DNA from: Campylobacterales bacterium
Lineage (GTDB): Bacteria > Campylobacterota > Campylobacteria > Campylobacterales > Sulfurovaceae
Assembly: GCA_014763895.1 (NCBI GenBank)
Contig: JACXUM010000017.1
Coordinates: forward strand, 1-49,706
Direction of reading: 5' to 3'
Length of the DNA stretch: 49,706 nt
Positions 13,292 to 37,245 of the stretch are shown here, in pieces. Within the stretch, counting starts at the first letter, position 1; every line of letters begins with the position of its first letter. The position numbers were made by a program, and so were the translations under genes. The notes beneath the pieces are model-generated. The model was given only the letters and a program-made list of their open reading frames with translations, searched no databases and was not told the DNA's origin.

Positions 13292-14689
13292 ATGGCAACA
13301 GTAACATCATACGGAGCAGCAGAAGTAGTGACAGGTTCCTGTCATTTGTTAGCGATAGAAGGAGGGCCTAGGATATTGATCGATTGCGGGATGTTCCAGG
13401 GACCTGAAGAAGAACACAATTTCGGCCCTTTTCATTTTGATCCCAAAGAGATCGACTATCTCCTGTTGACGCATGCGCATCTTGATCATAGCGGACGGAT
13501 CCCTAAGCTCCTTAAAGAAGGGTTTGAGGGGGAGATTTACGCAACGGAAGCTACCCGTGACATCGCGGAGGTCATCTTGCTTGATAGTGCCAAGATCATG
13601 AGGGAAGATTATGATACCAATTATAAAAAAGCGCAAAGACGGGGCAGAGAAGATGAGGTCAGAGAGCCTTTGTATACAGAGGATGATGTTGAGGCAGCAT
13701 TTGATCTGGTATGGCATTTTCCAGAATATGATCAAGCATTACATTTGAGCAAAAATGTCAAGGTAACCTTTCGCAATGCAGGGCATATCTTGGGATCTTC
13801 GTTTGTAGAGATCAGATATTTTGAACGGGACGTTGAACAGACGATCGTCTTTTCCGGGGATATCGGCAATAGTCACAGTCTGATCCTTCCTAATTTATCT
13901 GAATGTACATATGCCAATACGCTGTATGTCGAGTCAACATACGGTGATCGAAACCACCGAAATATGGATGAAACCATTACGGAGTTTAAACGTATTATCA
14001 TCGATACGCTGCATGACTGGGGGAATGTGCTCATTCCGTCTTTTGCGATCGAACGTACCCAGGAGATACTATTGATACTCAAAGAAATGTATGAGAAAAA
14101 AGAGCTGCCTGAATGCAAGATATTTCTAGACAGTCCGATGGCTACACGGGCAACACAAGTGTACAACAACCATTCCAACCTACTGAGCAAAAAATGCCAG
14201 GAGATTAAAAAGAGAGATGGAACGATTTTTGATTTTAAGCTGCTTACCTATACCCCTGACGTAGAGGCATCCAAAGCGATCAATGAAGTGGATCGCAGAG
14301 CGATCATCATAGCCGGAAGCGGGATGTGTACGGGAGGCAGGATACTCCATCACTTCAAAAATCGTCTTTGGAACCGTAAAAACGCTGTGATCTTTGTAGG
14401 TTATCAGGTTGTAGGTACCATGGGGCGTCACATGGTAGACGGGGCCCGCTGGGTCAAGATCTACCATGAGGATATTCTGGTTCAGGCAAGCATCCATACC
14501 GTCAACGGCTTCTCTGCCCATGCCGATCAAAGTTCGATAGTGAAGTGGGTGTCCAAAATGGAAGATCTGCATCAGATATTTTTGATCCATGGGGAAGAGG
14601 ATAAACAGGCAATCTTACGTAGTGTACTGGAAAATACATTGGATAAGAAAGTGCATATCGTTGAACCTGAAGAGGTCATCTATCTGTAA
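13292..14689 (+). CDS. Metallo-beta-lactamase/beta-CASP RNA-processing nuclease
   Basis: 465 residues. His61, His63, Asp65 and His66 in THAHLDHSG form the two-metal site; the Asp in FSGDIG is a bridging ligand. STYGDRNHR starts the beta-CASP part, which contains SFAIERTQEIL, GSGMCTGGRI and, near the end, NGFSAHADQSSI with the last His ligands. This is the CPSF73/YSH1-like branch, probably an RNA endo- or exonuclease acting in RNA maturation or decay. AAAGGAG stands before the ATG, 23 bases behind metK. Confidence 0.88.
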   Translation: MATVTSYGAAEVVTGSCHLLAIEGGPRILIDCGMFQGPEEEHNFGPFHFDPKEIDYLLLTHAHLDHSGRIPKLLKEGFEGEIYATEATRDIAEVILLDSAKIMREDYDTNYKKAQRRGREDEVREPLYTEDDVEAAFDLVWHFPEYDQALHLSKNVKVTFRNAGHILGSSFVEIRYFERDVEQTIVFSGDIGNSHSLILPNLSECTYANTLYVESTYGDRNHRNMDETITEFKRIIIDTLHDWGNVLIPSFAIERTQEILLILKEMYEKKELPECKIFLDSPMATRATQVYNNHSNLLSKKCQEIKKRDGTIFDFKLLTYTPDVEASKAINEVDRRAIIIAGSGMCTGGRILHHFKNRLWNRKNAVIFVGYQVVGTMGRHMVDGARWVKIYHEDILVQASIHTVNGFSAHADQSSIVKWVSKMEDLHQIFLIHGEEDKQAILRSVLENTLDKKVHIVEPEEVIYL

Positions 14690-17388: not shown

Positions 17389-18666
17389 TCATGCAAAGAC
17401 AAGCGTATTTAGCCAAAGTCCGGTACCCATCATTCCCAAAGTGATCAAAAAGAAGATAGAGACTTTTGCCCCGATCATTTTTCCGCCTATCCAATAGACA
17501 ATACCCAATTTGATCAACGAATTGGTAACAGAGGCTATGACGATACCGTTGATTGATGCTCTCAAAGAAAGTTTTTGATCGATCTCAAGCTGGGAAAGAG
17601 AAAGGGTAATGGCATCAACATCGGCCAATCCTGAGAGGAAAGAAACGACATAGACACCGATATTTCCATATTTATGAACCATGGTGATCATTCCATAAAT
17701 GACTCCGAACAATAATCCGAATTTGATTGCTTCACTCAGTTGAAGCGGATTTTTCTTTATCTCTTTATTTTCTAACTCCACCGTAATAGGCTGGTCACTT
17801 TGATAGATCCAGTATACGAAGATCAAACCGCTTAAACTTGCAGCCAGATAGGGTATTGCTAATAGAAGTGCAACTTTTTGATTGATCACGAATGCTTCAA
17901 AAAGGACTCTGAGATACATAAAAGTACAAGCGATGGCAATTCCAGCCGCAAAATTTTTAAGGAATGTTCTTTGTGTCAAATAGATCTTTGATAAAGAGAT
18001 GGAAACGGCGGTTGAGGAGATAAGCCCTCCAAAGATGCCTGTAAGCAGTATACCCCGTTTATTGCCAAGTATTTTGATGGCAACATAACCTACAAAGGAG
18101 ACAGCAGCGATAATAACGGCCATCAGCCAGGTTTTGTAAGGATTAAAGAGTTTGAAAGGGTCTATCATTTCATTGGGAAGTATAGGAAGGATAAGAAAGG
18201 TCATTGCCAAAAGCAGTATGGAGGCACTGAGGTCATCCGGGCTGATGTGTTGTTCTATCTGTTGAAGCCTTGGTTTGCTTTCCAAAAGCACGATTATCAT
18301 GACACCGGTAAAAATCGCATACTCTTCCAAATGCAAATAGATCATGAGACCCAATAAGTAGGTAATGATCGCAGCGATCTGTGTGGTCATACCCATTTTT
18401 TGAAAAAGCAATGATTTGGCAATATATGATATCCCGATAAGTGACATTACTGAGATTGCAACAATGGTAACAATGATCGGGGCAGATGAAGATAATTGAC
18501 CCGATAAAAATCCAAGCAGCGATATAAAGGCAAATGTCCGTGAACCTGCAAAAAAGGTTTGCTGTTTATCCTTGATACTGTAAAGGTGTGCCATGGTACG
18601 CTGCAAGCCAATGATGAATCCTAATACTACAGCGATTAATAGTGATTTGATCAATTCATATTCCAT
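17389..18666 (-). CDS. MgtC/SapB family protein with DUF4010 domain
   Basis: 425 residues with 11 to 13 membrane segments. The N-terminal third is MgtC-like (AVVLGFIIGLQR, GSRTFAFISLLGFLSG), a family linked to magnesium limitation and membrane energetics. The rest is DUF4010 with the conserved GGLISSTAVSISLS and FLSGLADVDAITLSL. Its ATG lies inside the last 11 bases of the P-ATPase gene, so translation is coupled and the two probably act in the same ion-homeostasis pathway. The transported ion, if any, is unknown. Confidence 0.85.
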   Translation of the reverse strand: MEYELIKSLLIAVVLGFIIGLQRTMAHLYSIKDKQQTFFAGSRTFAFISLLGFLSGQLSSSAPIIVTIVAISVMSLIGISYIAKSLLFQKMGMTTQIAAIITYLLGLMIYLHLEEYAIFTGVMIIVLLESKPRLQQIEQHISPDDLSASILLLAMTFLILPILPNEMIDPFKLFNPYKTWLMAVIIAAVSFVGYVAIKILGNKRGILLTGIFGGLISSTAVSISLSKIYLTQRTFLKNFAAGIAIACTFMYLRVLFEAFVINQKVALLLAIPYLAASLSGLIFVYWIYQSDQPITVELENKEIKKNPLQLSEAIKFGLLFGVIYGMITMVHKYGNIGVYVVSFLSGLADVDAITLSLSQLEIDQKLSLRASINGIVIASVTNSLIKLGIVYWIGGKMIGAKVSIFFLITLGMMGTGLWLNTLVFA

Positions 18667-21600
18667 GATTATCCTTTATATGTTTGAAGATGACGGTTTT
18701 TTTGCACCCTAACCATTTTACAATCTTATACCCTTCAACGAAGATAAAGACCGGGAGGGCAATCTCAAAGATAAGCAGCCAATCCTTCCACCCTAACGGT
18801 ACGGTGTGCAGTATCTCTTGTAAAAACGGCGTATAGATAGCTGTGATCTGTAAGGAGATGGTTGTCAGCCATGCTGCTATCAGCCATTTGTTACTTAAAA
18901 ATCCAAGCGTATGAAGAGGAGCATGCAGCGAGCGGTAATTGAATACATTGATCTTTTCAAGGATGATGATCGTCGTAAATGCAATTGTTTGAGCCAAAGC
19001 GACAGCCTGGTTTTGAGGCACACCCGATGAAAGATAGTGATAAAAAATCCAGAGTGTTACTCCTGCGATATATCCGCCGATCAAAATGATCATAATAATT
19101 CCTTTTTTTGCAAAAAAGGCCTTTGATGTGCATAGGGAGGACGGGACATGGTGCCTGATTCTATCTTTTCCATGCCCAATGCCACAGCGGTCATACCGTC
19201 TGTCACCAGGTTCATCCATAGTATCTGTATCGGCAGGAGGATAAGCGGCCCGCCCAATATGATATTGATAAAGATCGTAAGTACTTCGCCTATATTGGAT
19301 GAAAGAAGATAGGTTACGAATTTTTTGATATTTTCATATTGGCGACGGCCTTCTCTGACAGCGTTGATAATAGATGCAAAATTGTCATCAAGCAGTATCA
19401 TATCGGCTGCACCTTTGGCAACCTCCGTCCCCCGTTTTCCCATAGCGATATCGATGTCGGCTTTTTTAAGTGCCGGTGCATCATTGACTCCGTCCCCGGT
19501 CATCGCAGTGACCAACCCTTCATCCTGTAATATCTTTATAATCCGCATTTTATCCGAAGGCGTTGTCCTGGCAAAAAGTGCTTTTTCTTTGATGATCTTT
19601 TTTAATGAAATGTCATCCATTTTTCCAAGCTGCGTATCTGTTATTACATGAGATACGTTTAATCCAACCTCTTTGGCGATGGCGTTGGCTGTCAGCGGAG
19701 CATCTCCGGTGACCATAATGACATCAATACCCGCCATTTTGGCAGTTTCTATGGCATGATAAACTTCTGGCCTTGGAGGGTCTATGATACCCACCATCCC
19801 TAAAAGTACAAGATCGTTTTCTATGATCTTCTCATCGAGCTTGATACCTTCGGGCAAACTATGTTTTGTATAGTCTATTTTTTGGCCATCTTGCTCAAAA
19901 TGCCCTTTAGGATCATATCCGCTACCTGTCACATTAAAATGACCGTTAAAAAGCCAAATCTTTTTTACGGTCATTTCATTTTGTGTCAATGTACCTGTTT
20001 TATCTGCACAAATAACATTGGCATTGCCCAATGCTTCTGCAGAACCAAGACGCCGAAGCAGGGCTTTTTGCTGCAGCATCGCTTTTACCCCCAATGCCAG
20101 GGTGATGGTTACAACTGCAGGCAGACCTTCAGGTACGACTGCAACGGCCAGAGAGATACCGATTAAAAACATTTCTGTCAGATCTTTACCTGTAAGATAG
20201 CCGAAAATCGCAACAAATGCCGCTATAACTACAGAAAAAATACCCAGTTTCTTACCCAAAACCGCCAGTTTTTTTTGCAAAGGCGTTCTTCCTGCAACGG
20301 TTTGGGTGGTCATTTTGGCTATTTCCCCAAATTCCGTTTTCATGTTGGTTGATACAACGATACCTTTTGCATATCCGTTTACGACATTGGTCCCCATCCC
20401 TGCCATACAATTCTGTTCTTCCAATGGCGTAACGGCTACAAGCGGTATCGTATCTTTATGGACAGGAACCGATTCTCCTGTCAGTGCAGATTCATCGACT
20501 TTAAGGTTTACTGCATCTATCAGACGTACATCGGCAGGTATCTTGTCGCCGATCTCTAAAAAAATGATATCCCCCGGTACAAGCAACGTAGAATCTATCT
20601 CTTTTTTAATACCCTCTCTAAGTACATTGCAGCGTAAAGAGAGCATTTTCTGCAGTGCTTCGATAGCCCGTTCTGCTTTGAACTCCTGAACAAATCCGAA
20701 AATACCGTTCAATACAACAATTAAAAGAATGGCAAGGGCATCTTTACTCTCTCCGATACTGAATGAAATAACAGCTGCTATAAGAAGAATGATAATAAGA
20801 ACATCGGTAAATTGTCTTAAAAAGATCCATTGCCATTTGATGACTTGAACGGCCTGGATACGATTTTGGCCATACTGTTCGAGTCTCTTTTGTGCTTCAT
20901 TTTCCCAAAGGCCTTTATCAATATCCGTATTCAATAATTTGGCTATTTGGGCACTTTGCTGCATATAATAGGGTGGTTTTTCCTCTGACTTTGTCTGTGA
21001 AATAGGGCTGCTTAATGGATTTTTGTCCTGTGAAGGTGTCATTATCTGGTTTTTCCATTTTGAAACGATCAAGGTAAAAAGTAAAGGTACAAATATTGTA
21101 GAAAATGAGGAAGCAGCCACCAAGGCGGTAAACAGGTGACTGTCGATCAGGTGTGCATCATATAAAAGTTTTGCTACGATGATCTCGGTTGTAAGACGTA
21201 CATTAAGTCCTATGCCGACTGTCAGACCCTCTTTAAAGGTAAGTTTTTTTAGAGGCACCATCAAAAGGATACCGAATGTCTTGCCGATAAAGTCTGCCAT
21301 AAATAAAACAAGAGCGAGAAAAGGTGTTTGTACGAGCCCTTCAAGGTCGATACTCATTCCGATCCACAGAAAAAAGATCACCCCAAAGAAGCCGTAACTT
21401 ACTGCACGTACCGCATGCGTAGCTTGTATACCAGCTTCACCTGAAGCCTTAAAGACAGGTCTCATCAATATTCCTGCAACTATCGCTCCTACAACCAGTC
21501 CAAGATCGGTATATTCAGCAAATCCACCGAAGACAAATAAAATAATGATGGTTAAAAGAATAAGATTCGAGACACGTATTTCCAACCAATGTGAAAGTGG

Positions 21601-22244
21601 TACAAGGATCCATTTTCTGACAGCCCAGGCAGCTAAGACAAATAGAGAAACATTCATACATAACATAACAATTTCTGTAGAATTTTTGCTGATAAAACCG
21701 TTTTGATTACCTATCCAAAGTGAAACAACGGCAACAAGAAAGACTTCGATCACATCATCCAACACACCGGCTCCGACGATATAATTGCCTATTTTAGTCT
21801 TTATAAGTCCAAACTCATCCAAAATCGGAACGATCACTGCCTCTGCTGTAGGCATTCGCGTCATTCCGATAACAATAGCCACCATCCATCCGTAGTCCAT
21901 ATAGAGCATAAAAGCTGCACCGAGTAAAAATGGGAAAAGGGTATTGAGAACTGTGGCAAGAGTGATATCATTGCTTTGACTTTTCATCTCTTTCATATCA
22001 ATCTGCAAGCCGATAAAAAAAGTAAAAAAAGAACGCCAAGTTTTGCAAGTATAGTTAGAGTTTCGTTGAAAATGCCATGGAGCAGCAGATCGCCTATGGG
22101 GGAGTAATGTGCCGCCATCGCGACAAACAGTGCTGCAAGAATCCCCGGGATTTTCAATCGCTCCAGCAGGCCTGAAAATAAATAGGTAATGCCAAATAGT
22201 AACGATAAAAGCAGGAGAAATTGTCCAAATGTCTGGTCGCTCAT
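18656..22244 (-). pseudogene. Cation:proton antiporter fused to Ca-type P-ATPase (two frameshifts)
   Basis: Three reading-frame pieces form one product of about 1196 residues if two single bases are restored. Residues 1-400 are a KefB/NhaP-like antiporter (starts [44 protein letters not shown]). After a polar linker, Met402 onward is a type II P-ATPase: TGES, PEGLPA in the fourth helix, phosphorylation site DKTGTLT (Asp748, the 347th residue from Met402), [22 protein letters not shown] and NLVTDG in the fifth and sixth helices. These carry the calcium-site residues of SERCA-type pumps. No stop separates the two parts in the central frame. Frameshifts lie at the A7 run 22015-22021 and the A6 run 19112-19117, each one base short. 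Met402 could also be a separate ATPase start. Confidence 0.7.
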
Positions 22245-35635: not shown

Positions 35636-37245
35636 CTACCAGGAGCCTCCACCTCCACCTCCGCCACCTCCGCCGGAGAATCCTCCACCCCCCGAAAATC
35701 CGCTGCCACCACTGGATGAAGGTGGTGTAGCTGCACTGTGCACGAAGGAAGAAAAATGGTTCAGATTATCGATATTGCCATTGTACCAGTATGGTGTACT
35801 CACCTGTAAAAGTTTATAGAATGAAAGCCAGTGTTTTGTCTCTTTGAACAAAACGGCATAAGGAAGCATCTTGTCCAGATACAAAGGATCTTCTTCAAGC
35901 CTTCGTTTGATCTCATCCTGCTTGACCCGCTTAATGAACATCTCCAAACCTAGCAAATGTGTACGAGTACGGGCACCTTCGGGTGTATATTTTCCTATTT
36001 TCTTATACACATAGACCATTATAAAAATGAGGATCAAAATAACACTAAAAGGACCGGATAGAAGTTCTAAAGCACCCAATTTGGAGTTCATGATTCCTAT
36101 CACGGGAATCATCCCGCTTGATGCAAAGATGATTCCAAATAGTTTAGAAGACCACGTTTTATTGCCGATCATCACACCGATACCAACAGACCCGAATATC
36201 AAAGGAAACAATAATGCAAAAAGGATATCAGGACCGTATTTGGTAGAGAGTGAATAGAGAGCCAGCCCCAGTACAGGGAGTAGAAAGAAAATGCTTTTGA
36301 CTAAAAAAGATTTTCGTACTCTTTGTGGATTTTCACTCATGTACCCAGCGCTGACTATCCATGTATAAAGCTGTTCATTGATTTTGGCAAATCCATCTTG
36401 GAGTGCCTGTGCTTTGGCAGATGATCCTTTTGAAAAAGAAAATGTCTGACCTGAGCTAAAGAGAACGTTGGAAAGCAGATACTTTTGATTAAAAATCCGA
36501 TCAATGCACCCCAATGCCAATGATCCAGTATCCAATCGGCAAACGTCTCTTTGACATTGTCCAAACCGTGTTGATCCAACAGATAAGCCGGATAAGTCAG
36601 TTCAGCGGTCAATCCCTCATGCGGTTGTAGCTGTGCAAGAGTGATCTGTAATGTCCTTGGATCAAGCCACTGCGTTGAAGCCGATGAAGTCATTATTCCA
36701 TATGCACCCGTGAATGTTGAGAGTGAAACGATGTTTTGAGAAAGGGATGATGGAAGATGTATATGGGCTTTAATATTGTAAATAGGAATTGCCCATCCTG
36801 TACCTATGATGTTCCATCTTATGGCATCATTTTTTTCATTCCCAGATGCCGGAAGCACCCCTTTTTGGACATGGTAAGTGATCATATAGGTGTGTTCTCC
36901 ATATACATAGGATGAAGCTGAACCTATTTTAAGTCGTATGACATCGCCGGCATTGGTTGAAGCCATGGTGGACTGTTGCCATTGAGTTGGATAACCGTCC
37001 ATCATTACAGAAAAATCATATAGACCGATATCTTTAGGACGGCCTTTACCTACAACCAGATATGGAATATCACGGAAAATACCGTGTTTTTGCAGTTGCT
37101 CAAAATCGTAAACGATGGTTTCCTTGACAACAAGCTCACCGCTTTGTTCTACGGTGATATCTATATCATAACGATTGATCTTTTCTGCATGAGCATATAC
37201 GCTCCATCCAATGATGAACAGGGCGGCTAAAAAAAGCTTTTTCAT
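35636..37245 (-). pseudogene. DUF2207 membrane protein, frameshifted
   Basis: The N-terminal piece (37245 down) has a signal peptide (MKKLFLAALFIIGWSVYAHA) and a DUF2207 domain (INRYDIDITVEQSGELVVKE, FRDIPY). Before its frame ends, the continuation switches to a second frame with two membrane helices and a Gly-rich tail ending in a run of Gly plus Ser-Trp. Adding one base to the T4 run at 36483-36486 gives LIGFLIKKYLLSNVLFSSG and an intact protein of 536 residues, the usual DUF2207 architecture including the Gly/Ser tail. It lies 10 bases behind lemA, a very common pairing. Role unknown, at the inner membrane facing the periplasm. Confidence 0.75.

Follow-up and report, generated by a model that had tools for sequence, protein, structure and literature searches.

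A probably damaged copy of a conserved fusion between a predicted NapA-type antiporter and a type IIA P-ATPase in the Campylobacterota

The window analysed here is a stretch of 49,706 nucleotides from a Campylobacterales bacterium, and it carries an ion transport locus in which all genes lie on the minus strand. An earlier note on this DNA had located the genes and their junction correctly but had given them as plus coordinates. The open reading frame from 22275 to 19090 (minus strand) matches PF00999 (Na_H_Exchanger) and then Cation_ATPase_N, E1-E2_ATPase, Hydrolase and part of Cation_ATPase_C, with no stop codon in between, as had been claimed for a frame that joins an antiporter to a type II P-ATPase. 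The first segment of the NapA-like antiporter (22015..22244) starts with the ATG at 22244 and runs for about 76 residues in its own frame until it reaches a T-run. This segment matches the N-termini of eight fused relatives residue by residue in the alignment; past the T-run its frame hits a stop at 21993. The T-run itself (22015..22021) is the first frame break, defined by DNA alignment with six relatives. The remainder of the antiporter membrane domain, containing the LDD ion-site motif and the conserved Lys, occupies 21061..22014 and is followed by the stop-free junction (20870..21060), which comprises a hydrophilic linker and the N-terminal start of the P-ATPase. The pump continues through M1, the A domain and M4 (PEGLP) up to the phosphorylation motif ADKTGT (19869..20869; PF00690, PF00122 and PF00702), with the catalytic Asp codon at 20002-20004. 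An in-frame deletion point lies at 19868..19869, where about 390 nt are gone. The rest of the P domain and M5-M6 (19110..19868) retain the ligand residues N/E and N/T/D in the alignment. The second frame break, also placed by DNA alignment, falls in T6/A7 runs between M6 and M7 (19103..19117), and the open frame ends at 19090. The C-terminal segment M7-M10 lies in a third frame (18656..19102; PF00689, E 1.4e-28 for the ORF 18656-19219) and retains the M8 Glu. Both frameshifts are thus found where the note had put them, and the junction is open as it stands, independently of repairing either.

The last stop of the fusion gene and the start of the next gene share 11 bases (18656-18666), the overlap that had been described before. 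This gene (17389..18666) is intact and encodes an MgtC/SapB-type DUF4010 membrane protein (PF02308 and PF13194), here a separate polypeptide.

The antiporter of the window is a whole-domain match to PF00999 (E 1.3e-33). The two Asp residues of the ion site and their partner Lys, which mark the electrogenic type, are invariant in all 25 relatives and present in the window. The nearest solved structure to the antiporter half of an intact relative is NapA of Thermus thermophilus (PDB 4bwz, 5bz2; E 3e-14), and the alignment spans residues 14-393 of the relative, the whole antiporter half. NapA is described as an electrogenic Na+/H+ antiporter (PMC9606361), and its ion-site Asp pair and Lys are also found in the fusion antiporter. 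NapA stands alone, whereas the fusion adds a P-ATPase at the antiporter C-terminus. The CPA2 model TIGR00932 scores 99.3 for an intact relative and 91.3 for the window, both below its curated cut-off of 238.3, so the antiporter is CPA2-related by Pfam and by its likeness to NapA but not a clean TIGR00932 member. This half is predicted to be a NapA-type CPA2 Na+/H+ antiporter.

In the fused relatives the pump half always holds the DKTGT phosphorylation motif, PEGLP in M4, KGAPE in the N domain and GDGVND. The nearest solved pump structures are, in order, SPCA1, LMCA1 and SERCA. The type IIA P-ATPase SPCA1/PMR1 (ATP2C1) is the closest (8iwp, 2e-179); it is not fused to an antiporter, and it carries S/A, M and D at positions of M5, M6 and M8 where the fusion pump has the two-site ligands of SERCA. 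The best NCBIfam match is likewise the PMR1-type model TIGR01522, on which an intact relative scores 769.7 and the window 599.2, both short of the curated cut-off of 798.3. LMCA1 (lmo0841) from Listeria, a bacterial type IIA Ca2+ pump, matches the pump half with E 2e-169. It is described as having a single Ca2+ site, with Arg795 occupying site I (PMC11977196). At the position of Arg795 a Glu is found in the fusion family, together with the other SERCA ligands. The equivalents of E309, N768, E771, N796, T799, D800 and E908, identified by alignment to a SERCA stretch, are invariant in 22 of 22 relatives and kept in the window. This ligand set leads to the prediction that the intact pump would move two Ca2+ per cycle.

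The window copy of the pump is itself badly damaged. Relatives match the window protein as two blocks, and the same stretch is absent between them each time: a clean in-frame gap flanked by 'QKIDY' and 'SLPEGIKLD' that amounts to about 130 residues and corresponds to the N domain with GEPTEA, RKRM, KGAPE and GLRTLA. Every intact relative has this segment, and the description of the window pump as a complete type II P-ATPase is therefore not upheld. The spacing from Met to the catalytic Asp, on which that description had drawn, lies upstream of the deletion and is blind to it. Neither the missing N domain nor a second intact copy was found in a search across the whole assembly, in which four positive-control genomes matched well. 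PEGLP and the catalytic Asp are retained in the window, but the residue preceding the phosphorylated Asp is A (T in 21 relatives and S in one), and KADIGIAMG reads KADIDIAMG, with the G present in 22 of 22 relatives. From what is known of P-ATPases, loss of the N domain should leave such a pump unable to use ATP. ATP-driven pumping has probably been lost in the window, where the gene probably yields no full-length product and most likely makes no working pump. The copy is likely to be a recent pseudogene. The bulk of the protein gives no clear sign of relaxed constraint, since the terminal branch of the window copy measures 0.26 and that of its sister 0.33. Nor do changes at columns that are otherwise invariant clearly exceed those in the sister, apart from slightly more in the last part. 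The lack of clear relaxation implies that the decay is recent, or else some of the breaks could be sequence errors.

The stronger version of the latter idea, that the window copy is truly intact and that the deletion and both frame breaks arose in sequencing or assembly, is improbable, although it has points in its favor. Both frameshifts lie in homopolymer runs, the substitution pattern is not clearly relaxed, and a DUF2207 gene in the same window (35636-37245) also shows an internal deletion and a frame change. Against this, an in-frame loss of 390 nt is unlike a homopolymer error, the lost piece is absent from an assembly that is 99.8% complete, and the residues beside the phosphorylated Asp and in KADIGIAMG have changed as well. 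The neighboring genes for ClpB, PEP synthase and an FtsH-like protein are full length. The coding sequence of 403 kb of the genome contains about 305 A/T runs of at least 7, yet a codon-usage frameshift scan of these 403 kb suggests few unexplained frame changes; the sensitivity of the scan is limited, as it missed the first break of the fusion gene and explained the second as a chance overlapping start.

Intact versions of the fusion, each a single frame, are present in 15 related Campylobacterota genomes from four families: eight belong to the family of the window and the other seven to three further families of its order. Several of these are complete one-contig genomes. Their fused frames span 1,319-1,356 codons from stop to stop, and an even sample of the phylum contains the intact fusion in 13 of 397 genomes. 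The search of related genomes proposed in the earlier note has thus returned the long homologues it looked for, and the possibility that relatives always encode two proteins does not hold, as the closest relatives are fused. Since 15 other genomes carry this fusion in a single open frame, chance is excluded as the origin of the open junction. The joining of two genes by the assembly was considered and rejected, as complete genomes carry the same fusion. By comparison of these genomes, the fusion is real and conserved among Campylobacterota relatives. Copies with a frame change also occur in two draft assemblies, at the junction in G047 (L068, near 1700) and inside the N domain in G038 (L064, near 8740).

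In the tree built from the whole protein, one clade (support 100, starred) unites the fused sequences with the window copy, and the split sequences form another. In the latter, sister to the fused forms, antiporter and pump come as two genes side by side. The split clusters of G137, G138, G094, G090 and G136 contain the three families of the fusion locus in unchanged order, with one gene for the antiporter and a neighboring one for the pump. A single change of state would explain the pattern of fused and split forms. The tree alone fits either direction (fusion or fission) because the branch of the outgroup L038, a split form with the title Deltaproteobacteria, is long. Within the window copy (19093-22244, minus strand) the nearest relative of the antiporter half is G099, but as a whole the protein groups with G139; this mismatch may reflect past recombination between the halves.

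The MgtC/DUF4010 gene comes next in nearly all relatives. This agrees with the earlier suggestion of a module for ion homeostasis as far as gene content is concerned. Some genomes lack the pump. G049 (L069) and G209 (L079) encode the antiporter directly followed by MgtC/DUF4010, and their antiporters nest among the fused forms at starred support, which means at least two losses of the pump half. G024 (L086) likewise has only antiporter and DUF4010, on a branch too long to place. In G204 (L078), a complete genome, the fusion has decayed, with its start lost, frameshifts, and in-frame stops around KGAPE; from these lesions it is taken to be an independent pseudogene of the fusion. The survival of the partnership after pump loss suggests that antiporter and DUF4010 are a lasting pair and that DUF4010 is linked to the antiporter.

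These observations bear on how the two halves work together. The proposal of one polypeptide coupling ATP-driven pumping to proton exchange finds no support beyond the physical linkage, given the split sister clade and the two pump losses. A tightly coupled machine, in which the halves pass protons directly, for example with the H+ taken up in Ca2+ export being expelled by Na+-driven exchange, would fit the predicted H+ handling of both halves, the retention of the fusion over long divergence and the near-constant linker, which measures 62-66 residues from the last antiporter helix to the GxNRI motif in the 15 fused relatives of the four families. The sequence of this linker is poorly conserved, however, the parts are encoded separately in the sister clade, and the pump has been lost in two lineages nested among the fused forms, where the antiporter and MgtC/DUF4010 remain. 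These two lineages make the halves look modular and lend no support to tight coupling, which is a distinctly unlikely reading. Slightly more doubtful still is a proton-recycling unit in which the pump would take up H+ while exporting Ca2+, the exchanger would return this H+ by means of the Na+ gradient and DUF4010 would be a third subunit. The opposite departure, that the joined frames nevertheless give two proteins through internal initiation or proteolysis of the linker, draws on the in-frame ATG found directly past the last antiporter helix in many fused genes. This ATG is not at a conserved position among those genes, stops are found in the linker of none of the 15 fused relatives, and G036 and G186 have no in-frame ATG, GTG or TTG between the last antiporter helix and the GxNRI motif of the pump. 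In these two genomes the absence of such codons makes separate production of the pump unlikely, and for the family as a whole such a scheme has little to commend it. A structure prediction (AlphaFold) of the antiporter, linker and pump N-terminus gave a mean pLDDT of 51, too poor for use.

The preferred reading, with a probability of roughly 0.78, is that the window contains a damaged copy of a conserved fusion of a NapA-type antiporter and a type IIA P-ATPase whose halves are modular. In intact relatives the product would be one polypeptide of about 1,310-1,325 residues, in which a NapA-type CPA2 Na+/H+ antiporter at the N-terminus is joined through a short hydrophilic linker to a complete type IIA P-ATPase. 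The sequences themselves show the fusion, the one clade that the fused forms make up, the intact active sites and the order of the genes; homology adds that each half would run through its own standard cycle, the antiporter exchanging Na+ for H+ and the pump driving Ca2+ export against H+ with ATP. With labor divided in this way, the fusion would mainly set a 1:1 ratio and the co-localization of the two transporters for Na+/Ca2+/pH homeostasis and would not create a shared catalytic step. In the genome of the window, deletion of the N domain and the two frame breaks would most likely leave no working pump.

It is unusual for a primary pump and a secondary exchanger to be joined covalently. NCBIfam returned no model that covers the fusion, and none of the 509 plasmid records that match the query covers 80% of it. 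A search of an open-access library yielded no account of it; absence from the sources searched is no proof that the fusion is undescribed, as database entries may name such proteins. Within the literature searched, it appears to be a hitherto unreported arrangement of known transporter families. The coexistence of fused, split and pump-less relatives makes the benefit of fusing two transporters directly testable by comparison. The domain of unknown function DUF4010 gains a consistent genomic partner in the antiporter, even after pump loss.

Two other genes of the window deserve mention. The gene for the DUF2207-type membrane protein, on the minus strand, is a second damaged gene of this contig: it is split between two frames, and about 85 internal residues present in the intact frames of three relatives (629-652 codons) are missing from it. 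At 13292-14689 (plus strand) lies a gene for a beta-CASP RNase-like protein with a metallo-beta-lactamase fold, whose best NCBIfam match, below the cut-off, is the type VII CRISPR Cas14 model.
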